Shown here one piece after another: positions 2,140 to 20,600 of a DNA stretch of 21,871 nt. The position numbers and the translations under genes were made by a program. Position 1 is the stretch's first letter, and each line of letters begins with the position of its first letter. The notes under the pieces are model-generated. The model saw only the letters and a program-made list of their open reading frames with translations. It did not search any database and was not told where the DNA came from. This DNA is from a virus, in the IMG/VR virus record IMGVR_UViG_3300031851_004567, positions 1 through 21,871 of that record. One strand, written 5' to 3'.

Positions 2140-3675
2140 TTAGAACTCGATTACGATTTTAATATCTTCGATTTGGTCACCAGCACGGGAGATCGCGCTT
2201 CTATTATCTATGTAAATTACATCACCCGAGTTTGGTTCAATCTCAGGATTTGCATATCCGTTTGTAAATGACATACCCAGGTCATACTCAGTGTTATTAA
2301 TGACACGAGTAGATGATCCAGCAATGATTGGGAAGTTGATGTCGGGGTCTCCAGATGTACCAGAGGTAGAACCAACAACAGCATTACCACCCTCAAACTC
2401 AACAAGGTTACCTGTAATTTCAGGGAACACACCATCAACTCTGTTCTGATAATATTTCAGAACTTTGGTGGTGGAGTTCCAAGAGATGACACGTCCACGA
2501 GCAGTAACCTGCTGACCACCAACAGTACGAGACTGTGTGATGATTTCATCAGTAGAGAACTGACCTGTAAATGTCGGGGAGAAAATTACAGCACTTGTAC
2601 CAGACAAAGTAAGGTCTGCAACAAGTTCAGATGTACCAAATCTAAATGGATTGATAACGAGACCAATACGGCGATAGTCGTTATCAGTAGGGAAGTCACC
2701 TGATCCTTCATCGTAGGTGAACTTCGTGTTAATCATGACACGGTAACCACCCAACTCTACAGTGGGGTCGGAACCATGACCACCATCAGGTGGGATGATA
2801 ACGTCAATAGTTGCACCAGAACCAGTACCAGCACCGATACCATTAATCTCGTCAATGATAACTTTACCGAAGGTGTAGTTAGAACCACCAGATGTCACAG
2901 TTGCAGATACAACCTTACCACCATCAACAACGATAGAAACACGACCACCAGTACCGTCTCCTTTAATAGAAACGTTTTCGTAGGTGCCGTTGTTATAACC
3001 AGAACCAGAAGATTGGATTACAATAGTATCAATCTCACCACCGACAGCATCAGAAATAACTGCAGTGTCAGTCAGTACAGGCATGTACTCGTTAGAGAAG
3101 AACTTCAACACCTGCCCAACAGGGATGGTGTACATATACTTCCAACGATACCCATCAGCAGTTGTAATAACTGAGGTGGATGTACCTGTAGGTTCAATCG
3201 TAGATGGTTTACCGTTCGGATCAGAAGGGGATGTTCCGTTATAGATTGCCTTGTAAACCTGGTACGACGAGTTAACGACAAAGAAGTCTGCGTCATACAG
3301 TTTAGTTGCACCAGAAGATGCAGTTTTAGTAGAACTGTAATCGTGACGATACATGTCATAGACATAACCCAAACCACCAGTGGTTTGTTCGGGAGGTGTC
3401 CAGTCAACACGACGAATAACCTGAATAGTGTCGTTTGCCAACACTCGTTTCAGGGAGATTAGATCATCGAACACGTCAGAAAACTCTTGAAAAGAGTCCA
3501 CTGGTGTCGGAGGATTATTCTCGTTGTCCCATGCTTGTGGGCGACCGATGAAAACATACAGTCGATCTCTCGCGCTACCTGCATCAGTATCAGACTGGAT
3601 CGGGTCGGGACCCTCCAATGCCTTGATAAACTTATTTGCGGTAAAAATTCTGAATTGGTCAGTAAGTAGAGCCAT
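2140..3675 (-). CDS. 8: Baseplate wedge subunit gp8 (T4-like), enlarged
   Basis: 511 residues, against 334 in T4 gp8. Three regions resemble T4 gp8 from memory: residues 41-61 (VFIGRPQAW..., PTPVDS; T4 has a FGR..PW motif and PTDS), residues 172-200 (DGYRWKYMYTIP then NEYMPV; T4 has DGYVWEYLFEIP and NEYIVV), and the end (YIDNRSAISRAGDQIEDIKI; T4 has YMENRPPI...DQTEEINI). gp8 is a wedge component of the contractile-tail baseplate, where it binds the neighbouring wedge proteins. The extra length sits between these conserved parts: a glycine-rich segment at about 208-315 with GSGY and GSNY motifs, and a beta-rich segment at about 350-445. YRRIGLVINPF between the two corresponds to the T4 stretch around ISIITNP. 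A TATAAATA late promoter lies just upstream, and the DUF4815 gene follows after 4 bases. The assignment is strong; the role of the insertions is unknown. Confidence 0.9.
   Translation of the reverse strand: MALLTDQFRIFTANKFIKALEGPDPIQSDTDAGSARDRLYVFIGRPQAWDNENNPPTPVDSFQEFSDVFDDLISLKRVLANDTIQVIRRVDWTPPEQTTGGLGYVYDMYRHDYSSTKTASSGATKLYDADFFVVNSSYQVYKAIYNGTSPSDPNGKPSTIEPTGTSTSVITTADGYRWKYMYTIPVGQVLKFFSNEYMPVLTDTAVISDAVGGEIDTIVIQSSGSGYNNGTYENVSIKGDGTGGRVSIVVDGGKVVSATVTSGGSNYTFGKVIIDEINGIGAGTGSGATIDVIIPPDGGHGSDPTVELGGYRVMINTKFTYDEGSGDFPTDNDYRRIGLVINPFRFGTSELVADLTLSGTSAVIFSPTFTGQFSTDEIITQSRTVGGQQVTARGRVISWNSTTKVLKYYQNRVDGVFPEITGNLVEFEGGNAVVGSTSGTSGDPDINFPIIAGSSTRVINNTEYDLGMSFTNGYANPEIEPNSGDVIYIDNRSAISRAGDQIEDIKIVIEF
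2731..3054 (-). other. Glycine-rich GxGY insertion within gp8
   Basis: Residues about 208-315 of gp8 have no counterpart in T4 gp8. They contain two beta-repeat units with GSGYNNGTYENVSI and GGSNYTFGKVII, followed by GAGTGSGATIDVIIP. The same repeat type dominates the upstream 618-residue protein and a section of the giant protein, which suggests exchange of a common module between structural genes. The boundaries are approximate. Confidence 0.6.
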
Positions 3676-3707: not shown

Positions 3708-5564
3708 TTATTCTGGTTCGTTTCTCAGGAGAACGCTATATTCAGCGGACCACACATTTGCAGACCCACCTGACGTTCCACCAGATAGTGTTTCACCAGA
3801 AGTGAATTTGAATACATTTCCGTTGCCAACGGGATCTTTAAGAACCAGTGTGACATATCCAGAACCATATCCTGTTGCCGAAGCAGTGAAGGAGTCCACG
3901 GTTGCGGTGACTCCACTTGTACCACCAGACACGGTTTCTCCAACAGTGAAGTTGGGAATAGACCAGTTAGTACCAATAATATTAATGATTGCATCATGTT
4001 GATCACCATCACCCAGAGCACCAGCGCCCTGAACAGTAGCAACCAACGGTGTAGTATTTCCATCATAAATTTTGTCACCGATAGCAAGGAGTGTGGTGTT
4101 TTGTCCACCAATAGTTTCCTCAATACCGTAAAGTGAAGAGGCAATCCCACCATCAAGACTTGTTTCCAATTCAAAGTCTGTACCAGTATTTACCAAGTCA
4201 GGGATACCGTCACCAGCACCACTTAACTCATCATCATCTTCAAACTTCCTATCTGGCAGTGAAGAGAGAGGATTAGTAAACAATACAATGTCACTACCTT
4301 CTAGTTCAACCAGAACATGTGGTTCAACACCAGTTCCACTAGAACTTGCAACTCCACAAATAAAGGCAACAATTTTACTTTCTTCGGTAGAACGACCAGC
4401 GTCAATAAACGCTAGTTCATCAACTTGGAACACCAGATATAGGTCTCTAGTTTCAGGTCTCCAGTCATAAACGATAGCAATCTTGTTATCGCTAGATTCA
4501 GAGAGACGCCTTACACGGTCATTAATATTAAATGAGTAACCCGTTAAACCAGTATTTGGATTATCTTGTAAACTATCAAGACGAATTTTTTGATCAAATT
4601 TGAAGTTGACACCTCTAGTAACACCCTTAAACTGTGTGCCAGTTTTGGATGTATATCTAAAGATCTCTCTTCCAACCAGTGCTTTACCAGAACCAGGGAA
4701 CGCTGCAGTTGTTTCAACGTTAATCGTTGTATCTGATTCTGCAATGTCACCAGTAAGACCAGTAATATTGAACACTGTAGAGTTCAATGACTGTCTGTTT
4801 CTGGCAGTCCTTACAAGGTTTGTATTCCTTGCAAAAATAACTTGAGGTGGAGAAGTATATCCACCACCAGGATTGACAATGTTAATATTATCAATTACGC
4901 CAAGGTTAATCTGAGCCTCAGCAGCACCACCACTACCTCCACCACCAATCAACTGAACGATAGGTGGAGTCTCAAAGAACTCACCAGCGTTGCTGATATT
5001 AATGTTTTCGATTTGACCGAACTCATTTACCTCAGCAACCCCAGTTGCGCCTTCGCCGCCCCCGCCACCAATAACCAGAGCAACATCTTGTCTGGTATAA
5101 TTTCGTCCAACGTTTTCTAGGGATAAACCTGTAACACTACCAGTGACAGGAACCAGTTCACTACCTGCTCCACCGCCACCTTCGATACGTGCTACGGTTT
5201 GTGAGAAGTAGTTATCTCCGTTGGACCTTATTTGAATATAATCAACACCACCAGTTGCATTTAGAAATACATCACCAGCAGCACCATTGGCACCAAGATC
5301 ATCACTTTCAATAATCAAACGTAAAGGACTATATCCCTCACCAGGATCCAAAACTTCAACTGCTTGAATTTCTCCAGCAGTATTGATAATAGGACGCAAC
5401 ACTGCATCACGAACTGGAGTGCCGCAATTACCAATAGTTAATTTTGGAGGGTCGGAAGCAACATATCCAGAACCACCAGTAATAACAAATACATCTTTAA
5501 CGCCGTATGTACTGTTAAAAACTGGTTCAATGGATGCGCCACTACCTGGGACTGTTCTTGTCAT
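3708..5564 (-). CDS. Glycine-rich GxGY-repeat virion structural protein
   Basis: 618 residues with no identified enzymatic motif. Residues about 25-247 hold six beta-type repeats of roughly 35-40 residues, each with a G-x-G-Y-like turn (GGSGY, PGEGYSP, NGDNY, VGRNYT, AGEFFETPP, PGGGYTSPP) often followed by a GGGG run. Residues about 268-320 (AESDTTINVETTAAFP, then GREIFRYTSKTGTQFKGVTRG) match a small module seen in other phage baseplate and fibre proteins. The C-terminus has two copies of a 'GETVSGGTSG..A.V' motif (residues 542-555 and 590-604). The ATG is 3 bases after the stop of the cupredoxin-domain gene, so translation is probably coupled; the preceding GGTGGT is at best a weak ribosome-binding site. 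Its position just before gp8 suggests a baseplate or short-fibre component. I cannot equate it with a T4 protein. Confidence 0.85.
   Translation of the reverse strand: MTRTVPGSGASIEPVFNSTYGVKDVFVITGGSGYVASDPPKLTIGNCGTPVRDAVLRPIINTAGEIQAVEVLDPGEGYSPLRLIIESDDLGANGAAGDVFLNATGGVDYIQIRSNGDNYFSQTVARIEGGGGAGSELVPVTGSVTGLSLENVGRNYTRQDVALVIGGGGGEGATGVAEVNEFGQIENINISNAGEFFETPPIVQLIGGGGSGGAAEAQINLGVIDNINIVNPGGGYTSPPQVIFARNTNLVRTARNRQSLNSTVFNITGLTGDIAESDTTINVETTAAFPGSGKALVGREIFRYTSKTGTQFKGVTRGVNFKFDQKIRLDSLQDNPNTGLTGYSFNINDRVRRLSESSDNKIAIVYDWRPETRDLYLVFQVDELAFIDAGRSTEESKIVAFICGVASSSGTGVEPHVLVELEGSDIVLFTNPLSSLPDRKFEDDDELSGAGDGIPDLVNTGTDFELETSLDGGIASSLYGIEETIGGQNTTLLAIGDKIYDGNTTPLVATVQGAGALGDGDQHDAIINIIGTNWSIPNFTVGETVSGGTSGVTATVDSFTASATGYGSGYVTLVLKDPVGNGNVFKFTSGETLSGGTSGGSANVWSAEYSVLLRNEPE
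4824..5492 (-). repeat. Six GxGY beta repeats in the 618-residue protein
   Basis: Six divergent protein-level repeats share the pattern hydrophobic-x-x-x-G-x-G-Y-x-x-x-P/D-x-hydrophobic-x-hydrophobic, most followed by GGGG and an alanine or glycine stretch. The central tyrosine is replaced by phenylalanine in the fifth copy (GEFFETPP). The DNA copies have diverged, so this is an old duplication rather than recent slippage. Confidence 0.65.
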
Positions 5565-5567
5565 GAA

Positions 5568-7064
5568 TTAGACCACCACTAAGTTTCCTACCATGCCACC
5601 GTGGATTGTGCACTGGTAAACATAAGTTGTACCAGCAGCGACGGAGTACGGGACCTCCCATAGCAAAACACCAGTGGTGGAACCACTAATACCGTCAGTT
5701 ACCGCTGAACCACCAGATCCAACTCTGATCTCAAACGGGTGACCAGATCCAGTTGTGTTGTTGAATCTATAGGTGAATCCACGATAAACATAGATCGTTG
5801 GGTTGCCAGTAGAACTACTAACGCCAGGACCATCAAAGAGATAACCTGTACCAGTGCTACCAGAAACAGACCAACCTAGAACAGGAGATCCATAAGCGGT
5901 AAAGGTGTTGGTTCCTGTTGCAACAATGTTCTGATTTTCAGTTACAGAAGGAAGAGCACCAGCAGAATTATTAATGGTAAGAGTATTACCAGACATCACT
6001 GTGGTGATGTTTGTTCCACCAGCAATCGTTAAAGTTTCAGAAGCACTATTTGCTCCTGTACTTCCACTATCACCTGCAACAGTAGCAAAAATGTTTTGAA
6101 CAACGTTTGGTGAGTCGTTTGTAATCGTTAGATTATCACCAGCCACAGCAGTGGAGATCCCAGTACCACCAACAAAATTAACAGTAGTAGTAGTGCTATT
6201 AGCAGTTTTGGATCCCGAATCAGACCCAACAACAGAGAAGAGATTTTGATCAGGATCACCTAACGCCCCCGTCATGTTAATGGTTAATACATCACCAGTA
6301 ATTGATGTACCAATATTGGTACCACCAGCGACAGTTAAAACATCTTGTGCTGCACTTGCAGTTGTTGAACCAGTGTCAGCGTTGAATTGTTCAAACAAGT
6401 TTTGAGTAGTTCCACCACCACCGCCACCAGATGAATCATCATTGGCAGGTTCAAACTTAGAAGTAGATGAATTCCACTTAAGGATTTGACCATTAGAGGG
6501 ACCACCACCAACAGTCATGTCTACATCGGAGAGATCACCAACGCCACTGTTTTCGTCCACCAGAGGCACCCAGACGCCCCCATGAGCGAAGTAACCCTTA
6601 CCTGTGGCATGAACATGTGCAAACATGCCATGATGGTTTACAGCGTCAGGAAGACTTGCTAGATCAGTGTATGGTGCATAGTATTTTAGGAATCCATCTG
6701 CACCATCAATGTAGGTGTATGCAGATCCACTACCACCACCCCAAAATTTAATATCACCTGTACTATCAGGTTTAATTACAACATCTCTTGCGCTAGTTGA
6801 TACAATATTAAATGTCGAAACATCTAAATTACTTGTCAACTCATCAAAGTTACCTCCAACAAAAGAGGGGTTTCCTGCTGTAGACCACTTAAGAACTTGA
6901 CCTTCAGTGATACCCGATCCAATATTGACAAGGAGATCAGTCTCGTTTCCCAGACGATCATAAATCTCATCAATAACAGAATTGAGTTTTACACCAGCAT
7001 CCCTCAGGGTATCACCAGTGCCATCATTAGCGGAAGAACCAATACCAATGCTTTGTTTTGCCAT
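5568..7064 (-). CDS. Tail-fibre-like structural protein with C-terminal cupredoxin-like (type-1 copper) domain
   Basis: 498 residues. The N-terminus (GIGSSANDGTGDTLRDAGVK) is a segment common at the start of marine phage fibre-like proteins. Two copies of a G-Q-(V/I)-LKW motif lie near residues 55-60 and 192-197, and a histidine-rich stretch near 143-162 includes NHHGMFAHVHATGKGYFAHG. A glycine linker near 213-218 leads into three repeats of about 45 residues at 222-368. The last 75 residues resemble a cupredoxin: GHPFEIR (His442) and YQCTIHGGMVGN (Cys485, His488, Met491) supply the four ligands of a type-1 copper site, with amicyanin-like C-x2-H-x2-M spacing. Fibre-like architecture is inferred from the repeats and the neighbours; copper binding is predicted only. 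A late-promoter-like octamer lies 22 bases upstream. No good Shine-Dalgarno sequence is visible. Confidence 0.87.
   Translation of the reverse strand: MAKQSIGIGSSANDGTGDTLRDAGVKLNSVIDEIYDRLGNETDLLVNIGSGITEGQVLKWSTAGNPSFVGGNFDELTSNLDVSTFNIVSTSARDVVIKPDSTGDIKFWGGGSGSAYTYIDGADGFLKYYAPYTDLASLPDAVNHHGMFAHVHATGKGYFAHGGVWVPLVDENSGVGDLSDVDMTVGGGPSNGQILKWNSSTSKFEPANDDSSGGGGGGTTQNLFEQFNADTGSTTASAAQDVLTVAGGTNIGTSITGDVLTINMTGALGDPDQNLFSVVGSDSGSKTANSTTTTVNFVGGTGISTAVAGDNLTITNDSPNVVQNIFATVAGDSGSTGANSASETLTIAGGTNITTVMSGNTLTINNSAGALPSVTENQNIVATGTNTFTAYGSPVLGWSVSGSTGTGYLFDGPGVSSSTGNPTIYVYRGFTYRFNNTTGSGHPFEIRVGSGGSAVTDGISGSTTGVLLWEVPYSVAAGTTYVYQCTIHGGMVGNLVVV
5571..5795 (-). other. Cupredoxin-like domain with complete H-C-H-M ligand set
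   Basis: Residues 424-498 contain the beta strands and ligands expected of a plastocyanin/amicyanin-type fold. A first histidine (442, in GHPFEIR) comes after a TYRF strand, and a C-terminal loop has Cys485, His488 and Met491, followed by the strand GNLVVV, which ends the protein. It is not a photosynthetic plastocyanin: it has no signal peptide and is fused to fibre repeats. Confidence 0.7.
5961..6401 (-). repeat. Three ~45-residue fibre repeats (N-(L/I)-F ... DSGS ... GGT(N/G)I ... LTI)
   Basis: Residues 222-267, 274-317 and 324-368 are tandem copies. Each begins NLF or NIF and continues D-(T/S)-G-S, a T/A/S-rich stretch, a GGTNI or GGTGI turn, and a closing LTI(N/T) strand. This beta-repeat type is typical of fibrous, probably trimeric, segments of marine phage fibres. 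The number of copies often varies between relatives, which could adjust fibre length. Confidence 0.75.
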
Positions 7065-7086: not shown

Positions 7087-7094
7087 TATTTAGG
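7087..7094 (-). promoter_or_regulatory. Late-promoter-like octamer CCTAAATA overlapping a stop codon
   Basis: The minus strand reads CCTAAATA, matching six of eight bases of the T4 late octamer TATAAATA. The TAA stop of the YHYH gene (7090-7092) lies inside it. It ends 22 bases before the ATG at 7064, about the same spacing as the perfect octamer before gp8. The match is imperfect, so this is a candidate only. Confidence 0.45.
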
Positions 7095-8676
7095 TTTGAT
7101 CGAAGCTAGTTGATGTGCTATCGAGTGTAATACCTGTATTATCGAAGGTATTATTCGTAGAACCACCAATACCAGTTACGGTCAGAGTTGCAACATCAGT
7201 TGTGAGAGGTGAATTGGTTGCTGCTGTAGCACCAACGGGACCTTCAATAACAAGTTTGTACTTATACCCTGTCATATATGACAAAGCAGTAAACGCATAC
7301 GTCGGGGATGTTGCACCGTTGAGTTGCGAGTATGCAAATCCACCATCAGTAGATCTAAACCACTGATAAGACTTGGGACCATTTTCTGGAACAATAGTAG
7401 CGGAAACAGTAAATGTAACTGTCTGACCACTATTAACTGTTGCATTCTGTGGTTGTGCTGCAATCTGCAGAGTTGCAGGAGGTGCCACACCATCACCACC
7501 GCTAGGAGGTGCAGGAGGTGTAGCAGCACCATTGTTAGCTGGTTGATCAAGCACTTGACGTGCAGTAAATCCCATAAGGTATGGGAAGGATGGTTCACCC
7601 TGATCGTCTAATGATAAGAAATATGCATAGGTTCCAGATTGATATTCTGGAGTAATACAAAATCTTCCATTGTGAGAATCGAGAATTCCATTACCCTCAA
7701 CATATTCCCAGTCTTGTACAAAGGAACCTGCAGGTGGGTTTTGAAGTGTGCTCCCATATGAAGGTCTTCCCGATGTTTCTATGGGTTTTACTTGATATGA
7801 AGAACTCATGTCTATAACGCTTGAGGATGTATCCCAAGGATCAGTATATGCATGAGGACCATATACAGGGAATCCATCAAAAGCAAATCCCAAAATTTTA
7901 GAATGACCGTCTGGATGTCTTAGAACATCACCGTTGTACTGAGATAAACCATAGTAATCATTGTATGTTGCCATGACTGATCCCTGTTGCCAGCAATCAA
8001 TGAAGTGGGAGTCATGGTAATGATATTGACCCGTTTGTTCTGGATGTCCACCACATGAATCATCTCCAAAATCAGCAGGAGATGTTGGGTAATGTGCATT
8101 CCAACTAAATCCTGCTGGTGGGTTTCCACCAGCACCAGCAGAAGGATTGAAGAAAACTACACCGTTACCTGCAACACCAATAGCACCCAATGGAGTAGGA
8201 TCGCGTCCTAATCTTTGATCATAGTAAGTATATGTACCTGTATTGCTATAGTTAGAATCAGGAACAATTAACTGTAAATTTGTATCTGTACTTCTCCAAC
8301 AATATCCTGCTGTAGAAATAAAGGTTGTACCATTGTAAACAAACTTCGCCTTTCTACCATCACTAAAAACAAATAACAGATTATCTCCAGGACGAATTGA
8401 ACCACTATCAACCGTGGCAGATAGCAATGCATTATCATCTACCGACAGTGGAATATTGATGGTAAACCCTTCTTGTGAATAGGTATTATCATCAAATGTC
8501 CTTTCAATTCCAAATGTACCACCCCTATAATAGAAGTCGTGATTGAAATCTTGTTCCGTAACTGTATTCGGATTGTTCGCATTAGGGAACACACCGTAGG
8601 TGACGGGACTAGGTAACCCGTCACCATCTACAGTCAGGATCCTTGTAGCAGGTACATAGGAAGCGGTTGCTGTCAT
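7090..8676 (-). CDS. YHYH-domain and Ig-like structural protein
   Basis: 528 residues in three parts. Residues about 1-140 are beta-rich and unassigned. Residues about 145-375 form a YHYH domain, with GGHPEQTGQYHYHDSHFIDC near 209-228, GFAFDGFPVYGP near 263-274, and a closing HNGRFCITPEY...GTYAYF...FPYLMG block near 335-369. The YHYH family occurs in marine bacteria and phages and has no known biochemical role; its clustered histidines and acidic residues could bind metal, which is inference. After a proline/glycine linker (about 385-401), residues 402-502 form an Ig-like domain (GQTVTFTVSA, YQWFRSTDGG), a common surface-binding module of phage virions. The gene starts 13 bases after the stop of the giant gene and overlaps no other. 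It is probably a virion surface or fibre-tip protein. Confidence 0.87.
   Translation of the reverse strand: MTATASYVPATRILTVDGDGLPSPVTYGVFPNANNPNTVTEQDFNHDFYYRGGTFGIERTFDDNTYSQEGFTINIPLSVDDNALLSATVDSGSIRPGDNLLFVFSDGRKAKFVYNGTTFISTAGYCWRSTDTNLQLIVPDSNYSNTGTYTYYDQRLGRDPTPLGAIGVAGNGVVFFNPSAGAGGNPPAGFSWNAHYPTSPADFGDDSCGGHPEQTGQYHYHDSHFIDCWQQGSVMATYNDYYGLSQYNGDVLRHPDGHSKILGFAFDGFPVYGPHAYTDPWDTSSSVIDMSSSYQVKPIETSGRPSYGSTLQNPPAGSFVQDWEYVEGNGILDSHNGRFCITPEYQSGTYAYFLSLDDQGEPSFPYLMGFTARQVLDQPANNGAATPPAPPSGGDGVAPPATLQIAAQPQNATVNSGQTVTFTVSATIVPENGPKSYQWFRSTDGGFAYSQLNGATSPTYAFTALSYMTGYKYKLVIEGPVGATAATNSPLTTDVATLTVTGIGGSTNNTFDNTGITLDSTSTSFDQT
7171..7473 (-). other. Ig-like domain of the YHYH protein
   Basis: Residues 402-502 show the pattern PQNATVNSGQTVTFTVSA, then YQW, then an SPTYAF strand and a closing VATLTV strand. 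It closely parallels the Ig-like domain at the C-terminus of the giant protein encoded just upstream (NPSNVTVNQGQTAAFTVIA ... YQWQ ... NSAVLNV). Ig-like domains on phage virions are thought to help weak binding to cell-surface sugars. Confidence 0.75.
7552..8244 (-). other. YHYH domain
   Basis: Residues about 145-375 contain the family-defining YHYH tetrapeptide (218-221) with flanking His211, His224 and His257 (HPDGHS), the GFPVYGP motif and the FPYLMG end motif. Cysteines occur at 208, 228 and 340. Boundaries are approximate, but the family call rests on several separate motifs. Confidence 0.8.
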
Positions 8677-8686
8677 TGTTTTTGAC

Positions 8687-8694
8687 TATTTATT
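8687..8694 (-). promoter_or_regulatory. Late-promoter-like octamer AATAAATA overlapping the giant gene's stop codon
   Basis: The minus strand reads AATAAATA, seven of eight bases matching the T4 late octamer, and the TAA stop of the giant gene (8690-8692) is inside it. It ends only 10 bases before the ATG at 8676, so T4 geometry would give a leader of about 5 bases. This is either a nearly leaderless transcript or a chance match. Confidence 0.5.
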
Positions 8695-11600
8695 GTGCAA
8701 AGATCGAGTTCGGTACGAAGTTGGAGATTACAGTTGCACCAGTCTGGACGTTAAGAACAGCAGAGTTGGAGTAGACAGGTGTTGCACCTGCATACGTGAT
8801 TGCAACTCTGTACTCATCACTGTCGTCTGCTTGAGAAGCAGATCCAGTGTCATATGTTGCCTGGTTTGCACCAGTGATATTTGTCCAGTTGGTTTCCCCG
8901 TAGTTCTTCCTCTGCCACTGATAATTCAGACCAGAAGTTGTTCCGACAGGATCGCCATCCTCAGCATTGAAGACTGCGATAACTGTGAATGCTGCAGTTT
9001 GACCTTGGTTTACAGTCACGTTGGAAGGATTCCGTGTGATCTGAATTGCACCATTCTCGATGGTGATTGTTTGACCAGTGTTGGGATCAATACCCTCACC
9101 AGCATAAACATCCAAACCATCATTGACAGGTGCACCTTCAGGCGTAACAAAATCATCCTCAACAACGTTGGAAACGGTGACTTCAGGTAGTGAATAACCA
9201 ACACCAGGTGTCTTAATTGCAATATTTGCAATTCCCATCAGAGCACGGATACGACCATCAAAACCACTGGAGGAAATAACCGCGACATTTGGGCGCGTGG
9301 TATAACCGTTACCAGGGTTGGTAATGATTGCGGCATCAATTGTGCCTCTACGGATAGTCGCAAGCGCGGAAGCGTTACGACCTTTAACCGTTCCCGTGTA
9401 CTCAAAGGTAACCAAAGAGTTGGAAGATTCAATCAGAGCAACCTCACGAGGATCAGACTCATCTTCACCTTCGATAAAGAGTTTGTCACCTGCTTCAATT
9501 GGAGGAACAACGTAAGACGCGATAACGTCTGCTTCAGAACCAACGTAGGAGAATGCCACGAATGTGGATCCTGCGCGAGGCGTTTCAGCAAAGATGATCC
9601 TAGAACCAACCAGTGTGTAACCAATGCCAGGTTCCTGAATAACACCGTTCAAGGAACAGATGATGTTATTTTCAGGTTTGATCGTGTTAGAAGAAACACC
9701 CTCAGTCAGAGTTAGTGAGTAGAAACCGCCAGTAATCTTGAGGTTGAAAGATGAACGTAAGGAGTCAAACTCGAAACTAATGTCATCCAACTGACGCAAT
9801 TTACCAACGTAGTATCCAATAAACTCAGACCCAATTTCAGGTGGTTCAGTGAATGTGATCTCATCCGAAGATGCAGTGAATGCGTTGTTTGCACCAGGTG
9901 GTTGCATAATACCATTCACGAAGATCATCATATGACCTGCAGGATCGGGCAGATATTGCTCACCATTTGCGATAGTGAGTTTGAAGATTGTCTGCTCACC
10001 ATCAAATCCACGGAAGTAACGATCAACACGTCCAACCAAATCACTTGCAGTAGATGTTGCTGCAATCCATCCGTTATCTGAGATAAGGGTCATGTTGTCG
10101 CTGAATGTTCCAACAACATCTTCCAACCACACGCGAGCGGTAATACCACTCTGCTCGATGCTTACGATGCGACCGTAAGACTCATATGCGGTTTCTGTAT
10201 ATGCACTAACCTCACCGTAGATAACAGGGAAGTTGTTAAGGTTTTCAAACTTACCGATTGTATAACCACCCAAACCAACAGTGCTTGCAGGGACACTTGG
10301 GTCACCAGATACGCTACCGATGTAAAGATCATTGATACCCTCATCTGGGCGATAATCCCAGCTAGTGACATATGCAGTCCATCCAGGAACAGCAATTGCA
10401 GTTCCCTGAAGCAGATACAGTTGATCTCCAACAGTGAAGTTACCCGTGTAACCTGTGTCACGTACAACGCTAGAGAGGGACAGTTTGATAGTTCTGTCGC
10501 CGTGGATGTATGTGTTGATTGTGATTGGTGAACCACCATCTCTGATACCCACGAGGTCAAGAATTTTTTCAGTCTTAGAACCATAGATAACATCACCAGA
10601 CTCCCAACCGCTATTGATCGTTTCCACGTCAACCGTGATACGACCACCTGTGTTGCCAGTAAGAACGCCTCTCTTATCATTGAAGACGGATACTTTTGCT
10701 TCTGTGGATGTGGTGTCTTTGAACAACCAGTCACCTGTGAAGAATTGACCCAACTTAGTATTGATAAGTAGACGATCCTCAACGGTAGATGTGACAGTAG
10801 CAGTTGCACCACTATCAACACCTTCGAGGACATCTCCTGCGGAGATTGTGCCAGTGATACTTCTGATACGAATGTGACCGTTATTCAGTTCATTGCGAGC
10901 AATTGTCTGAAGGGCAATACCCTGGTTGACAGTTGCACCTTGCACCTGAATGACTTCGCCGTCAACGAACTTCTCCTGCGACATTGCAGAAAGACCGAAG
11001 TATTTGTATGTTTTAACAACTTCAGCACGGTTAAGAAGTTGACTGGAAACTTCACTGGAAGCACCAGTTGCAGTACCAATCAGAACGTCAGCAATATTGA
11101 AACCTGCACTAATTGGAGTTTGAATATCGCGTGTGCCATAGTTAATTGTATTTCTAATAATTCCAGAACGACGTGCAGTAGTAAAGTTCTGGTTACCTGA
11201 GTTTGTTGTATCCAGACGGAATGGACGATAGCGACCATCATGTTGAGGTACGCGAGCGATCTCAAACCAGTTTGCCTGAGCATTCAGAACATAATAGAAG
11301 TCCTGATCATTGGCACCATCAAGTGAAGTTGCAGATGCAAGAGTGTATTGCAGCAGATCACCACGACGGAAGAAGTTAGTTCTGTTAATGCGAACGCGAT
11401 TTTCTTCACGCTCAAATCCAACTTCAATAGTAGGAGTAAGCAGAACCAGTGCAGGATCAGTATTATAATCTTCACCCTCGTCATATACATTGGTGAGATT
11501 TACAGCGTCGGTAGATGCAGTAAATGTGACAACATTTTCTGATGGGAAAGTGGAACGCTCAAGTGCAAACTCAAGGCAGTTGAGGGAAGAATCCATACTG

Positions 11601-14600
11601 AATTCAGAGTATTCCTGATCATATTCAATTCGTGGTTGATAACCACCAACTGCAGGAGGATAGAAAGTATCATATCCAGACCAACCAGGACCGTTGTAGT
11701 TCATCACAATATCCTTCGCATATTCGCGAACTTTATTCATCGCGAAGATTAGACGAATACGATCAATATCGGGATATGCAATGAAGGTACCTTCACCATC
11801 GAACCATGTGGCAGCAAGTTCAAACGCACCAGCATTACCGCCAGTTGCGAGGTCATAGATCATTGCCTCAAGAATTGCCTGGGCGTATGTTGTATCTGGG
11901 TTAGTTCCAGTTGAATACTGTGTCACAGTTTGATCAATTGCTCTCTGTGCGATTGCATGATCGTTGAATCTGATGAACTCAGCGATGGTGTGATCTGTAT
12001 GCTTAGCGGCACCTAAAGTACCAGACAACAGATCATACAATGTCATGGTTGCCGACAGTACGTTATAACAGGTGTATGCCTGATACTTGGTATTTGTGTA
12101 GACCGATGCAGGTGTAGTTCTACTAATTGTTCCGAGGTGAGGAGTAGTGCCCAACCATGCTGCTTCGATGGTATTGATACCAACGTCGAACAAAGTATTA
12201 ATGGCAGACTCAATAGTCGCACAAGTAGAATTCCATCCAGCAGCAGCGTTGTCATAACTAACGCTGAGATCACGATCAGCGTGGTTGCCAGAATACTTGA
12301 TAGGCCAAATAGCAGGCAGAGTACGCTGAACACTAGCAAGAGATGTAGGTGTGGTGATTGTATCGGTAACAATCTGCATGATCGTATCGATTGCTGCCTC
12401 AACGTTAGAGCAAGGACCACCGTTGTTAGCAACCGTACGTGTCTGACCACTCATAGAGTTGGCAGTGAGAATATCCTCAACGGTTTGCATCAGCGTTTGT
12501 GCAGCAGAAACCTCAGTAGGACATGCAGGTTGTGTCACGTCAGTTGTGATTGTGAGATCACGATACTGTTGCAGTGATGTGTAAGAACCCCAGTTAGTTG
12601 TAATGTTAGAGGGGATCAGTTCGTTACGGATAATGTGATCAATGATATTAGAACGGATGTAACTAATAATTGATGTTGAACGCTGTCTTTCTGTAGCATC
12701 CAGGTGAGGATTGTTAACGTATTCTTCACCGATGTCATAGATGTAAGAGTTACCAGCGTATGCAACGTGGTATGCAACCGATTGAATAATACGCTCAACG
12801 TCATCAACACATGCAACAGTTCCAGTAGGAATAGTCCAACCGTTGTTTGCAACGTACATTCCAACTGTACCCTCTGCAATGTAGCGGGCGTTGTTACGGA
12901 TCAACCAGTATGCGTCAGCAGCACGAGACTTATTAGCATCGGTAGCACCAGCAAGGGAGGTTTGCTCCATTGTGGGGTTGTCGCGGCTGCGTTGTCTGTA
13001 TGGATAGAAGTCGAGATCTTCGTAGAACTTCTGACTATAGTTGTGAACGTGGTTACCAGTGTTAAGAGTGGGAACACTACGCATCACGTCAAACATGATC
13101 TTCTTCGCTTCTACCATTGCATATACAGTCTCAGTTGCCTGAGATCCAACATGCAGGAGAGCATTGGAAGCATTCACGTAGAACTGAGCAGCATCCACAA
13201 CTTTGCTATTACCACCGTACTTGAGGTGGAAGACCAGTGCTTGCAGAATGTCAGTGATGTCATGGACACAATCGACACTACCAGCACTGGTTACAGCGTT
13301 AGGAAGTGCACTTACGAATGTGTGATCATATTGCTGACCAACAGGTGAGGCACCAACGTTGACTGTAATCGTAGTTGCATCAGCAGCAGTAATTGCCAGA
13401 GATGCATCATATGCAGGGTCGGTGTTACGAGGATATGCATGATTGGATGCATTACCATCCTGTGTACAGGTGAATATAATTGACTCAAGTTCAATGTATA
13501 CCTTGTTGCTTGTTGTCAGACTGTGAGTACCAATGGTAAGAACCATCTCACCATTAGATGCAGTGTAGACAGCATTTTCTACATCAAACTGAACACCACC
13601 CGATCTCGTTCCTGCCTGTCCACCATTGATGGAGAAGGAAGGATACTCTTGAGTTGTACGATGAACTGCCTCTTCAGCGATGAAACGGATGTTTCTATCG
13701 ATGAGGTTTGCAGCGTCAACATAACGCGAGAGCATTGGGTTTTGATCGTAAGAATCATCACCAGGATCATTCTCTTCACCAACACCGAAACCGTAGACAA
13801 GATCTTTACCGAAACCATTTCTCATGGTCAAGACTGCCATGTCTCTCGCCTGCTTGTAGACGTAGATAGATGCCTCTTCCTCACCCTCAATATGCTTCAG
13901 TGAATTATCTTCTGGTTCGATGTAAAGTTCAGCAGCATCATAAACCTTGCTGTTACCACCAATACGGAGGTCATGAATGACAGCATCCAGGTAATCCTTA
14001 ACATCATCCATACAGTTAACCTGTCCACCAGGAACCTCGATGTTGGAGAACTTAGAAAGATCGTTCATCGACATAACTGCTTCAGAAGCAATCTGATCTT
14101 TGTTCACCTCGATCATGTTCGCTGCATCCAGGTATCTGTGGATGTCAGAACGGTTAAAGTCGTAACCTACAGGATCAACAGTATTGTTGATAGCGTCATC
14201 TTGCTGTCTATATGCTGTCTGTTGGGTATACTGTGCGACGTAGTAATCGTCAGAATAATCAGCACCCTGATCGGCAGGAGGTGCCTGACCGAAGGTAACA
14301 AGGAGTTGGTTGATTGCCTTGAGTGACAAATACTTACAATATTCAATAGCATCAACCATCGGCAGAAGTTCTTCATCAACGTGAAGAATATCTTTGTTGG
14401 AATCTAGATATTGATCAATGACATTGTTTACAGCAGAGTTACCGCCAGTAATCAGGTCACTGATGATTGCAGGAATAACAAAGTCCTTAAGATCCCTCAA
14501 GCAATATGGTTCACCATATCCAGGCATAACGAGTTTGTCATAAGCATTGCCGTTGATGGTAACTTGCCACTTGTTCTGAATGTATCCAACTGCTTCCTCA

Positions 14601-17600
14601 GCAATGTAAGTTCTATTCTTCCAGAGGGAATTGCCAGCATCACGATAACGATCACCAGTAGGTCCAAGGATGTCAAGAATATTATTAGTAAGAGTATCAA
14701 TTTCATTCTGTACGGTGACAGAAGCACCACCAGAAATTCCATGAGGAATACGAAGAATTTGAGTTTCAGGATCAGTTAAATCAGTGTCACTTGTGGTAAC
14801 AACATACTTGGCAAGTCTGCCTGCTTCTTGCCAAGCGAAGAGCGTTTGCAGCAATTCTTTCTCGACAAAATCAACAGAACCATCTGTAGCAAGATAACCT
14901 CTAGCAATAGTAGTTGTATAGTAATCGCCACCATACTTAAGATCTTTAATGATTGCATCTAAGATATAATCTCTAGTGTCACGAATACATGCTGTTGTGC
15001 CACCATAACTTTGAATTGCAGCATTGTCGCCAGGGATAATAAAGTCTGGATATTCGGTTTGCATTCTACCGACAGCAACCTCAGCAATCCATAGATCATT
15101 CTTCTCAAGGATTTCAGCAACAACACGATGACCATCACGAGACAGATCGATGTCTTCGATGATGACACGTTTGTTGTCATAATCGATTGACTTGGCAGTT
15201 GCAGACGAAACTGTTGTACCTGTGAAGGTTGCGTAAACTTCAGTTGTAGAAAGAATGAATGGAGTATCACCCGTCAAACCAAGGACAATATTGGTGTCAC
15301 CATATGAAACAGTGCTAGGTGCAGTAAAGGCAGAAGTGTAGTATGCTTCACCTTTTCTGACTGCAACGTTATCCATGTTTCCAATGAAACCACTGGAACC
15401 ATTACGATCAGCACCGATGTAGCAAGGACCGTAACCAAAGTCTGTACTGTTGCTTGCATTACTTCCTGCTTGTGTGCCATTGACATATGCAGACATGACA
15501 GATTCATTTCTGACAACTGCAACATGGTACCAAGTGTTAGTAGTGGTAAAGACATTACCTGACAGAATAATGTTTGTAGTGTGATCAAATACACGCAGTG
15601 TTTGATCCACCATTCTGATATTCAAACCACTGGTTGCACTGCCTCTACGGCAATCAAAGATGTACTGTGTACCAGAGATGCCAGTAGGGTAGATCCATGC
15701 CTCGAATGTTAGGTTACCAGTGCCGAAGTCGAAGTCATAAGAATCAACTTGCTTCAGATACGAGTTGGTAACAAACTTCAAAGATTTGTTGCTATTAGAA
15801 AGACTTTTGTTGGTAACAACAATACTTTGAGTAACAGCAGACGAACCAGGGTTTGTCAGTGTGGAGTTTGTGATATACTCACGATCTTGAAGAGTTGCAC
15901 TAACGCCAGTGGCATCGGCAAACAACCACTTCAAACCAGCGTTAACACCTGCGAGTTTGAAGGTTGCACCAGAAGTTTTTGCAGTGATATTGTCGCCAAG
16001 GGCAAACAAACCACTAGACCTATCTTTGTATGCAATCTTATTAACACGAACAGTTTCACCCTCACGGAATGAACCATCATCGATATTTGCAAGAGAGTTG
16101 ATGTAATCAAGATTGCCAACTGCTATGGTCTTAAGACCGATGTCAGTTAGTGTATTAATTGTTGATTGTACGTTCGCACAGTTAGAAACGGATTGTCTAC
16201 CGCCAGATGCATAATCAACATCGTAGGAATGTGCAGTTACGCCACCACCTGTGTATACAGCACCAGCACTGGCATTAATGAATGTGTGAGTAAATCCACC
16301 ACCAGCAGAAATAGCGTTAGCAGATGCACCACTATAAGTGTGGGCATATTGCTGAGAGGCAGGAGATGTGCCAACGTTTACAGTAATTGTTGTGGCAGTC
16401 GCGCCTTCAATCATCAGAGACGCACCTGACGCCATGTCTGTAGTGCGAGGATATGACTCAACTGATACGTCACCGTCTTGTGTGCAAGTAAAGGAAATTG
16501 ATTGATCGGCAATCGTTACATGCTTACCTGCTTCCAAAGAGTGAGCACCGATTGTGATTTCCATGTCACCCGTTGCTGGGGTATAGGTAGCACCAGTAGG
16601 AGTAAACTGCACCAAAGGAGATGCACCAACATTAACTGTAATTGTGGTTGCACTTGTTGCAGAAATTGCAAGATCATCCTCAAACGGAGTGGAATATGGT
16701 TGTGGATAAGTTTTAATTGCTTGACCACCATCCATGTCGCATTGGAACGACAAAGAATGAGGTCTGATGGTAACTGTATCAGAGGTAGTCAACGAGTGAG
16801 AACCAATAGTCAGAACCATACTTCCACTGTTAGGTGTATATACCGCAGCAGTAGGAGTGAACTCTACAAGTGCTGTACTAGAATCATATGTAGAAGGATC
16901 ATTAAGGTTGTACACACCGTTGTCACCAGTACCACTGGTAGGCATTACCTTGTAATATAGAAGGTTGTTAATTGCTCTATATGTGAGATCTCTTGCCTTA
17001 GAAAGTGCAGTCCAGGTTTCTGCTTGCTCACCAACAACACCGTTATTGATGAATGTTGCACCTTCAAAGTAGGACTTAGAAAAACTAACGGTGTTTGTGT
17101 TACCACCACTTCTGACATCCTTAACAATAGCGTCAACGAAGAGACCAACATCTCTGCGGCACTTAGTTTCATTGCTGTTATAACTGGTAGGTTCAGTAGG
17201 AGTAATGTCGCTGAAGTCTTGATTTGAAAGAAGAGTTTCAGAGATCGTAGCAGCGAGAGTATCAAGTGCAGCCTGAATATCAGCACAAGCACCAGCATCA
17301 TCATTATTGATAGCACTACCAGATCCACCATAGTTTGCAAGACCAGGAGTGATTGATGTATCTGCGTAATGTGTATATGTAATACCATCAACTGCCGTTG
17401 AACCAGTAAGTTGATTAGTCAGTGCTGACTTCATATAGTCGGCTGCCTTGTTATAACCCCAAACAGTTTCAGTTACCTGAGCGTTGATGTATGCAAGGTT
17501 GCCGTTACTATAGTATTCTTCAATAAATTTACGAGCATACTTGTTACCACCTGCAAATACATCATATGCAATTGCATCGACGTAGTATGTAAGGTCACGC

Positions 17601-20600
17601 TTACACTTAGTGCTGTTAGGAATAACCAAAGATGGATATTGCTGAGTCATATCGTAGAATGCTTTAGCTACGATATACTCTTTGTTCTTCTGGATCAGAC
17701 GATATGCATCACGATAACGTGAACGTCCATCAGTTTGAGATGCCCCAGGATAGTAGAAGTCTGGATGCATGACAGCAATTTCTGCTGTTGCAAAGTCAAC
17801 AATCTCATCCTTATTGCCAGCAATCATGAAACTAGCGTCAGCATGACGGTTTGCAGCAACGCCGTAGGAAGAACCAAGAATTGGGTTGTTATAGTTGACC
17901 TTGATATTTCTAACAGTGTCGCCTTCACTGAAGACGCCGCTACTCAGGTCAGTATATGTAATTTCAGAGGAACGAACTTCTTCAAAGTCAAGGAAGTTAG
18001 CGTTGATTCTGCTATCAGAGTCAAGCAATTCGACAGGAGTGATACTAGATTTAGAAATATCATCCAACAGAACGTTAGGATAAGATTGACTAATCAAACG
18101 CTCAAAGAGTAGACCATAGAACGATGAACCAGCAGTCAGTTCTTGTGTATCAACAACGTCGTTGGTAATAGGATCGCGATAAGGTGCAAGAACAGTAATT
18201 CTTGCAGCAAGATTAGATCTTGTGGAGTAAACAATGTCTTGTAGACGGAAGTCAAATACACCAACCTCATACTCAGCGGTACCTGATGTCTTAGACAAAA
18301 CAATATCATTACCAGCAGTACCATCAACATTCAAGTTAATAGCATTAATTTGTGCAGTCGGGTTACCACGAGAGCGATTGGTGCAAACCAGAGTTTCGTC
18401 AAACTGGAAAAGGTTTTCCTGAGAAACACTTAACTGACTATCAATTAGTGCACTAAATCCAAGGGCACTAACATCAATTCTTTCATTGTTCTGGAAAGGA
18501 CCACCTGTGATGTCAACAATATCTACAGTGTTACCTGCAGATGAAATAACAGTTGCAAATGCATCACTCTGGTTACCTGTAATTTGGTAACCAATTTCTG
18601 GGAAAATACCAGACACATTGGAAAGTGTCAATCTGGTAATTGGTAGGAAGTCAATAGTTGCATCTCTATAGACAACTTTAGAAGGTGCCTTGGGTGCTTC
18701 TTTGAATACGATGTTACCACCAACAATGTCATAAGAAACAACAGGTGCCTGAACAACACCGTTAAGCAGGATCAACAACTGATTGTTGTTAACGATGACC
18801 TGTTCACCTTCAACAGTGATTGGGAACTGGGTCTCAATACCGTCAAACTGACCTGCAATGTCATCCAACTTCTTAACGATAGAAGTCAAGATTTCCTCAG
18901 AGTTGGTCAAACGCTTTCTACGGAAGAGAACTTCAGTGTTATTAAAGTCGGAATACTGAGGTTCAGCAGCAGCGAATGATGTAACTTCGTTAACGTTGGA
19001 GTATTCGTTGATGTTCACCTGTTTGATGAACTCAGTTCCAACCTTACGACCAGAGATGTCCTTACCGCCAGTCAGTTGTAACTGACCGAACATGTTGAAA
19101 CCAGCGGGGTGGTTGTTCTCCAGAATTTGTGCTTTCCAGAGGTTAATAGGACTTTGTGTCTTAATAACGTAGGAGAAGTTCTGATAGAAGAAGGAGTCTT
19201 GAATCTTCTGAACGATCTCGGAAGGTTTACCAACGTCATCGATAAACTTACCAGGTGTCTCAGTCAGAGAACCGATATTCAGCACACCTTTAGCAAGAGA
19301 GATGTTGTCAATAACACCAGATGCACGGGAGACTGTTCCATTGACACGTTGACCAGCAACAAACTCACCATCAAGATCTACAAGTTTCAAGATCTTAGGA
19401 CCGATCTGCCAACCATTGTTATTAGATACAGTTGCGAAAACAGTTGCAAGTTCTTCGCTATCGCCCATGTAAACTCTCTCACCCTGGAGGAATCTAGAGG
19501 TTTCAACGATTGCTTCAGCAGCACCACCAAATACTTCAGTAAGTAAAACTTGACGACCTGCACCCTGTGTCAGGAAGGTGATATAGTTACCAGACTCCGC
19601 ATCAGCAGGTGTCAGTGCAAATCTAATTTGATCACTTTCAAGAGAGTTTACATCACCAGCAATTGCATAATAGATCTGGTTTGCAACCAAACTGGTCAAA
19701 CCTGCAGAACTTGGTTTTGGAAGTTCGCCTTCAGTGGAACCAACATCATCTGCTCTAAATGAAATTGCAGCACCCTGGGTAATACCATGAGGGAAGTTAA
19801 ACTGCAGATAATTTAGGTCAAGGTTAACAACATAGTTAAACTCAGACTTCAAATTAACAACAGGTTCCGAAGAGTAACCTGCACCAGGATTCTTAATTTG
19901 AATCTCATTCAGTCTGTTGTTTTTAACGATTGCAACTGCTTCAGCACCAAATCCACCGCCACCTACGACAATAACGCTAGGAGCAGATGTATAACCAGCA
20001 CCAGGATTTGTGATCTTGATCTGGGACAAGATAGAGGTGTTGAACAACTGAAGGTTGACAGGGAATGTAATCTCAGGTTTCAGTGTATAGTCATGGGAGT
20101 AACCATAACCAAATTCATTGTTCTTAAGTTTTTTGATCTTACCGATGTTCTTACCCGTCAAGAACACAGATGCACCTGTACCCTCATCAGGGATGACGAC
20201 TTCTAAATCGGCACCTGAACCAGTTAACTGAGGTCCAAGAATACCTTGAATTGAATCAACATCAACACTACCAGTAGTATATCCTTTACCAGGATCAGTA
20301 ATTACAACGCTAGTGATAGTACCAGAACCGATTTCCTCATCAACAGCAACAGTAATACGACAGAGACCACCTTCACCATCACCAAGGATGGATACTTGAT
20401 CATATGTGCCGATTGCATATTCGGAACCACCAGAGGTAATATTGATACGTTCAATCTGACGGAAGGATGCAATATCCTGAATGATAGGCAACTTCTTATA
20501 GAAACCACCAGCAGAGATCAGTTTGATATTTGCAATAGGTCCGATTGCACGTTTAGATGATGTTGAGTATGTGGAATAAGGTACATCCTGATCATTCTCG

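Follow-up and report, generated by a model that had tools for sequence, protein, structure and literature searches.

A cupredoxin-type domain with a predicted type-1 copper site in the gp9-like baseplate protein of marine T4-like cyanophages

The C-terminal 100-120 residues of cyanophage gp9 are shown, by structure prediction and profile comparison, to form a cupredoxin-type domain, whose predicted type-1 copper site is, judging from its sequence relatives, complete and selectively maintained. Cupredoxins are well known; here, one is found on a tail-baseplate protein of cyanophages. The near-invariance of the four ligands suggests that these viruses may carry copper in their tails. The domain was found in a stretch of viral DNA of 21,871 nucleotides (IMG/VR record IMGVR_UViG_3300031851_004567, positions 1 to 21,871), referred to as the window. 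Among metals, iron is already known from phage tails (PMC11705849), and phage plastocyanin genes (petE) are a separate matter, also known (PMC3037559). In the open-access literature searched, cupredoxins were not linked in any relevant way to the tails, baseplates or tail fibres of phages, or to cyanophages, and the novelty of a tail cupredoxin is provisional.

The gp9-like gene and its neighbours

Inspection of the open reading frames places the coding sequence at 5571-5795 on the minus strand, the plus strand there being without coding. The genes considered are the following:

2140-3675, minus: gp8-like baseplate wedge protein (PF09215, 60.3 bits; phrog_438)
3708-5564, minus: baseplate wedge-related protein of 618 aa (phrog_22827/phrog_708)
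5568-7064, minus: gp9-like baseplate wedge / tail-fibre connector of 498 aa (phrog_677, PF07880, gene order)
7090-8676, minus: virion structural protein with a YHYH domain (PF14240, 124 bits; phrog_25852)
8690-21661, minus: giant virion protein of 4323 aa, two genes from gp9

The sequence-only reading had described the 498-aa product as a phage fibre-like protein. That it belongs to the tail was upheld, and phrog_677, PF07880 and the gene order of S-SM1 now refine the description to the gp9 connector of T4-like cyanophages. The protein matches phrog_677 ('baseplate wedge tail fiber protein connector') over its full length with E 3e-142, and its cupredoxin domain alone matches the same family with E 5.5e-40. 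Residues 3-57 match Pfam T4_gp9_10_N (PF07880; 30.8 bits, cut-off 25), and the PDB relatives of the N-terminus are T4 gp10 (E 9.5e-5) and T4 gp9 (E 0.003). The order of genes in S-SM1 (large protein, gp9, large protein, gp8) is the same as here, homologues are named gp9 in isolate records, and the nearest isolates by this protein are S-WAM1, S-SZBM1, P-TIM40 and P-RSM6, at 57-61%. The virus belongs to the marine T4-like cyanophages or is closely related to them, and the protein is best assigned, from these matches, as the T4-gp9 homologue of such a phage. For the S-SM1 virion, 41 proteins are named by proteomics (PMC3037559).

Regarding the neighbours, the cupredoxin profile had no match in the 618-aa protein, and no PDB relative was found for the YHYH-domain protein. 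One BFVD fold match of the cupredoxin domain is itself a YHYH-domain phage protein and, in consequence, the two domains may belong together; that the YHYH domain might be a second metal site is speculation.

The giant virion protein has features of its own. Similarity to phycobiliproteins marks a domain within its residues ~1318-2990 (~12700-17710), where Pfam Phycobilisome scores 56.3 bits (cut-off 22.2, E 4.9e-15). It also matches phycocyanin alpha in the PDB (E 1.4e-5), KCKRDLTYYVDAIAYDVFAGG being aligned to the 21-residue stretch around the bilin-binding Cys, and it contains seven C-x-[RDH]-D segments (residues 1353, 1501, 2225, 2387, 2550, 2798 and 2951). Since the role of phage phycobilin-synthesis genes was called a mystery (PMC3037559), a putatively bilin-carrying tail protein merits a study of its own. 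Moreover, residues 1973-2101 (15359-15745, minus) correspond to a Laminin_G_3 / concanavalin-like lectin domain (E 3.9e-19), likely a sugar-binding part.

Fold and predicted copper ligands of the C-terminal domain

Within the gp9-like protein, the following parts can be differentiated:

6894-7058, minus: T4 gp9/gp10-like N-terminal segment, putative baseplate anchor, residues 3-57 (PF07880; PDB T4 gp10/gp9)
5949-6401, minus: three consecutive QN-F...DSGS...TLTI-GGT-I-T...G-LTI-N repeats, residues 222-372 (direct reading of the sequence)
5571-5930, minus: predicted cupredoxin domain, residues 379-498 (AlphaFold2 model, Foldseek, family profile)
5571-5873, minus: core of the cupredoxin profile match, residues 398-498
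5739-5741, minus: His442, first predicted copper ligand, in the GHPF motif (sequence; invariant in 77 distinct domains)
5610-5612, minus: Cys485, predicted copper ligand (sequence; conservation)
5601-5603, minus: His488, predicted copper ligand (sequence; conservation)
5592-5594, minus: Met491, predicted axial ligand (sequence; conservation)

A helix is modelled at residues 19-38, and the repeats would build a trimeric fibre stalk. Both stalk and trimer stay putative, since the full-length monomer model (pTM 0.34) has low confidence outside the C-terminal head, repeats included. The domain starts at residue 398 by the profile match and at about 379 by the confident model, which gives it a length of 100-120 residues. 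It had been placed in the last 75 residues (424-498; 5571-5795): all the ligands do lie inside that segment, but its limit cuts off the first strands.

The idea of a cupredoxin-like domain on a phage tail protein was borne out by two independent routes, namely structure prediction and profiles that find plastocyanin and amicyanin. Structure prediction, proposed from the outset as a check, yielded a confident cupredoxin-like model (pLDDT 93.1 and pTM 0.88 for the domain alone, modelled with 27 relatives). When this model was compared with the PDB by Foldseek, the best 50 matches listed were all cupredoxin-class copper proteins (best E 2e-4, amicyanin being the first), and those listed comprised amicyanin, rusticyanin, copper nitrite reductase, laccase, plastocyanin, pseudoazurin and Fet3p. 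The TM-scores against solved cupredoxin structures reach only a modest level (0.40-0.54) and, hence, the phage domain is a distant member of the class.

At the sequence level, a single-sequence query had amicyanin as its only match (E 1.2), while a profile of close relatives matched type-1 copper proteins only (best E 0.011). A profile built from ten divergent copies found plastocyanin (6.3e-6), amicyanin (2.3e-5) and rusticyanin (1.3e-4) in the PDB; it matched 80 PDB sequences and, of the 60 listed, nearly all are type-1 copper proteins. The domain scores under the cut-offs of both Pfam Copper-bind (PF00127; 13.3 bits versus 21.2) and NCBIfam amicyanin (TIGR02657; 14.7 bits versus 110.2), the latter score indicating that it is not an amicyanin; weak PF00127 matches occur in 21/27 relatives. 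In the profile alignment to amicyanin, each of the four ligands falls opposite its counterpart. Some profile alignments leave the register of His442 against plastocyanin uncertain by two residues, proline being paired with proline; the amicyanin alignment resolves it, together with the fact that His442 is the only possible partner histidine in the domain.

The ligand set that had been read from the letters, His442, Cys485, His488 and Met491 (C-x2-H-x2-M), is present in the 498-aa reading frame exactly as claimed. In the model, the penultimate strand ends with the cysteine, and the histidine and methionine are in the loop preceding the last strand, an arrangement that fits a common site. His442 and His488 are the only histidines after residue 161. 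Cys485 is the sole cysteine of the 498 residues, so its conservation is not explained by a structural disulfide within the chain, and that reading was rejected. A chance motif was likewise rejected, given the conservation and the rarity of the pattern in shuffled domains (3e-5 of shuffles for H-x38-48-C-x2-H-x2-M; 4e-4 for a looser pattern).

Relatives chosen independently of the motif were obtained from an IMG/VR scan that used patterns from residues 1-280 only; some other search patterns contained the ligand motif, a bias controlled by this N-terminal scan. The ligands are not often lost, as the proposed survey of homologues made clear: all four are kept in 48/48 distinct complete C-termini fetched by the N-terminal patterns and in 100/100 distinct complete relatives pooled over the scans. 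In the pooled set, the loop reads C-x2-H-x2-M in 90 relatives, C-x2-H-x3-M in 7 and C-x4-H-x2-M in 3, and the codons at the ligands vary (CAC/CAT 79/21 at H442, TGC/TGT 78/22 at C485, CAT/CAC 58/42 at H488). Since synonymous codons vary while the residues stay, it is selection on the amino acid, and not recent descent, that keeps the ligands.

Conservation extends to remote copies. An alignment of ten divergent copies has only ten invariant columns, all four ligands among them, and across divergent copies the best-kept columns are Tyr, Cys, His, Met, the first His and a few Gly/Pro. Among 43 copies that include cellular proteins, the cysteine and the second histidine are present in 43/43, the methionine in 42/43 and the first histidine in 40/43, the three exceptions being halocyanin-like proteins with the histidine two residues later (M-P/D-H-N). 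The only loss of the axial methionine seen is that of an S-CAM3 copy (KU686198.1, residues 1005-1094), which reads C-V-S-H-P-E-A, with Ala in its place.

Occurrence of the domain in other proteins

By tblastn, the domain was found in ~350 phage records, nearly all of them from marine cyanophages, with a few from Pelagibacter and Methylophilales phages. Apart from gp9, three groups of carriers can be distinguished: (i) fibre proteins of cyanophages, podoviruses and pelagiphages; (ii) subtilases, with the domain at their C-termini; and (iii) secreted collagen-stalked bacterial proteins. The putative proximal fibre of P-SSM2 has two of the four copies of its genome. Of the gp9 profile, P-SSM2 matched the C-terminal part alone (341-493), and the match lies at the extreme N-terminus of this fibre. 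In the podovirus proteins of P-GSP1 and P-SCSP2, the domain is close to the N-terminus. Further carriers are the S-H34 'minor tail protein', S-SKS1 and the HTVC028P fibre. The isolate genomes outside the gp9 set were picked for matching and say nothing on the universality of the domain. The family profile also finds halocyanin-like archaeal proteins.

The bacterial proteins, from three sampled genomes of one bacterial class, begin with a signal-like N-terminus, continue as a collagen-like stalk and end in a head with GHPF and C-x2-H; they may be regarded as a cellular counterpart to the stalk and head of the phage proteins. Across carriers, the plan that seems to recur is that of a head displayed on a stalk. 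A bacterial or archaeal origin of the gp9 form itself was rejected, as the five assembly matches that carry ~500-aa gp9-type proteins look like phage contigs. One of these matches, in Nonlabens xiamenensis (NZ_RMVE01000006.1), is a 188-kb contig with a 498-aa cyanophage-type gp9, and it may represent a complete phage genome that was assembled along with the bacterium.

Two variants of the domain were also observed. In the S-CAM1 subtilase (KU686193.1, 2263-4518), residues 198-309 match profile positions 81-101 first and then 3-79, with the Cys, His, Met and HPF His all present in permuted order; this copy appears to be circularly permuted. In S-CAM8, P-RSM1 and S-MS29, the large baseplate gene after gp9 contains a degenerate GHP(L/M)...YYxC-x2-H-x2-M segment (E 1e-3 to 1e-2), perhaps a second and more distant copper-type domain in the same baseplate.

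Possible roles and comparison with known systems

The T4 gp9 protein is a trimer that is fixed to the wedge at one end and attaches the long tail fibre at the other. By analogy, cyanophage gp9 would be a trimer on the baseplate: its N-terminal segment would sit in the wedge as the anchor, the repeats would build a stalk, and three cupredoxin heads would occupy the distal position at which T4 gp9 attaches the fibre. One predicted copper ion per head would pin the Cys-His-Met loop to the His442 strand and stiffen the head; the metal would mainly be a structural staple of the docking head, not an electron carrier. This explanation as a whole, in which a trimeric stalk bears a structural head that holds copper at the joint of baseplate and fibre, with a maintained predicted type-1 site, is given an even chance of being right. 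The joint is favoured by P-SSM2, whose proximal fibre starts with the stretch that matches the end of the gp9 profile, as if a connector head had been fused onto the fibre; the position close to the N-terminus in the podovirus proteins of P-GSP1 and P-SCSP2 points the same way. Against the explanation stand the modest TM-scores (0.40-0.54) and the Pfam and NCBIfam models under their cut-offs. As a general account, the joint does not explain the C-terminal copies of subtilases, and a purely structural role alone gives no reason for keeping the full type-1 set, Met included.

Other explanations must be weighed against the same evidence. The three copper heads could instead face the host as an adhesin, touching the cyanobacterial surface with a metal that shapes or makes the contact, comparable to the Trojan/Ferrojan Horse use of iron that has been proposed for tail fibres; iron-holding HxH motifs are present in T4 gp37 and reported in cyanophage tails, in line with the Trojan Horse idea (PMC11705849). 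Secreted collagen-stalked proteins of the three sampled genomes of one bacterial class bear the same head, which would, in consequence, suit surface display. Nevertheless, the ligands and core are far better conserved than the remaining surface, the copies of P-GSP1, P-SCSP2 and the proximal fibre of P-SSM2 lie near the N-terminus, normally the end on the virion side, and the head is without any link to a receptor, all of which makes an adhesin unlikely. Of the roles that had been suggested from the sequence, the binding of host copper proteins found no support in this analysis, and the N-terminal copies of two podovirus proteins and of one proximal fibre do not suggest a receptor-binding tip. 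It could also be that the fold was simply reused, as a virion domain with no metal or with zinc or iron, the residues being kept for folding alone. Free copper is scarce both in the cytoplasm and in sea water, and the distant S-CAM3 copy has lost its Met; yet the four ligands are retained jointly in nearly all copies, despite changes of loop length and circular permutation, and a Cys-His2-Met set is characteristic of copper, so that reuse of the fold is held to be improbable.

The site lacks none of the ligands of electron-transfer cupredoxins, the axial Met included, and some cyanophages carry electron carriers that include plastocyanin petE (PMC3037559, PMC2984593). A type-1 site of this kind could pass electrons, sense the redox state during infection, or remove copper or oxidants near the host. 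However, the tail has no known partner protein or route for electrons, and the domain stands far from plastocyanin, without obvious descent from petE (a derivation from the phage petE plastocyanin was rejected as unsupported, the similarity being remote); such a redox device is considered highly improbable. The stronger proposal that marine cyanophages show copper-loaded, redox-competent type-1 sites on the baseplate, with copper loading or reduction as a part of infection (e.g., as a trigger or host-surface sensor), is very unlikely; if it were true, phage particles would also be copper carriers in the sea.

If copper is bound, then: (i) a tail component shared by many marine T4-like cyanophages would have a kind of metal site new to the phage-tail literature searched; (ii) colour, EPR and metal content would be a direct handle on how these phages hold their fibres; and (iii) copper would join the metals, so far mainly iron, that are possibly carried by ocean phage particles. 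In any case, tail proteins given by PHROGs and many records only as hypothetical or tail fibre now have a predicted fold and a testable site.

Compared with amicyanin (TIGR02657; PDB 1aac, 3ply), a free periplasmic electron carrier, the phage domain is part of a tail protein, but it shares the cupredoxin fold and the order H...C-x2-H-x2-M. The amicyanin-like loop that had been claimed thus holds for the C-to-M spacing and not for the first His, which is followed by Pro-Phe (HPF) instead of Asn; a minority of relatives have other loop lengths. Plastocyanin and halocyanin (PF00127) have the same fold and ligands (family profile E 6.3e-6), but in the phage the order His-Pro is reversed with respect to Pro-His-Asn and the C-to-M loop is shorter. 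Laccases have their first His in the motif HPFHLH. Multicopper oxidase type-1 sites resemble the phage site in the H-P-F context of the first His, and two-domain laccases are among the fold matches, while the phage domain is single and lacks the His residues of the trinuclear site.

With T4 gp9, the protein shares the N-terminal segment and the gene position beside gp8. The similarity is confined to residues 3-104 (phmmer); the same search detects none to the C-terminal domain of T4 gp9, and the phage C-terminus is instead a cupredoxin-type domain after fibre-like repeats. Finally, other metal-holding tail parts, such as the HxH iron sites of T4 gp37 and spike tips, also have their ligands within trimeric tail parts (PMC11705849); but while T4 gp37 holds octahedral iron by HxH pairs across the trimer axis, the site described here is a predicted single-chain Cys-His2-Met site of the copper type.
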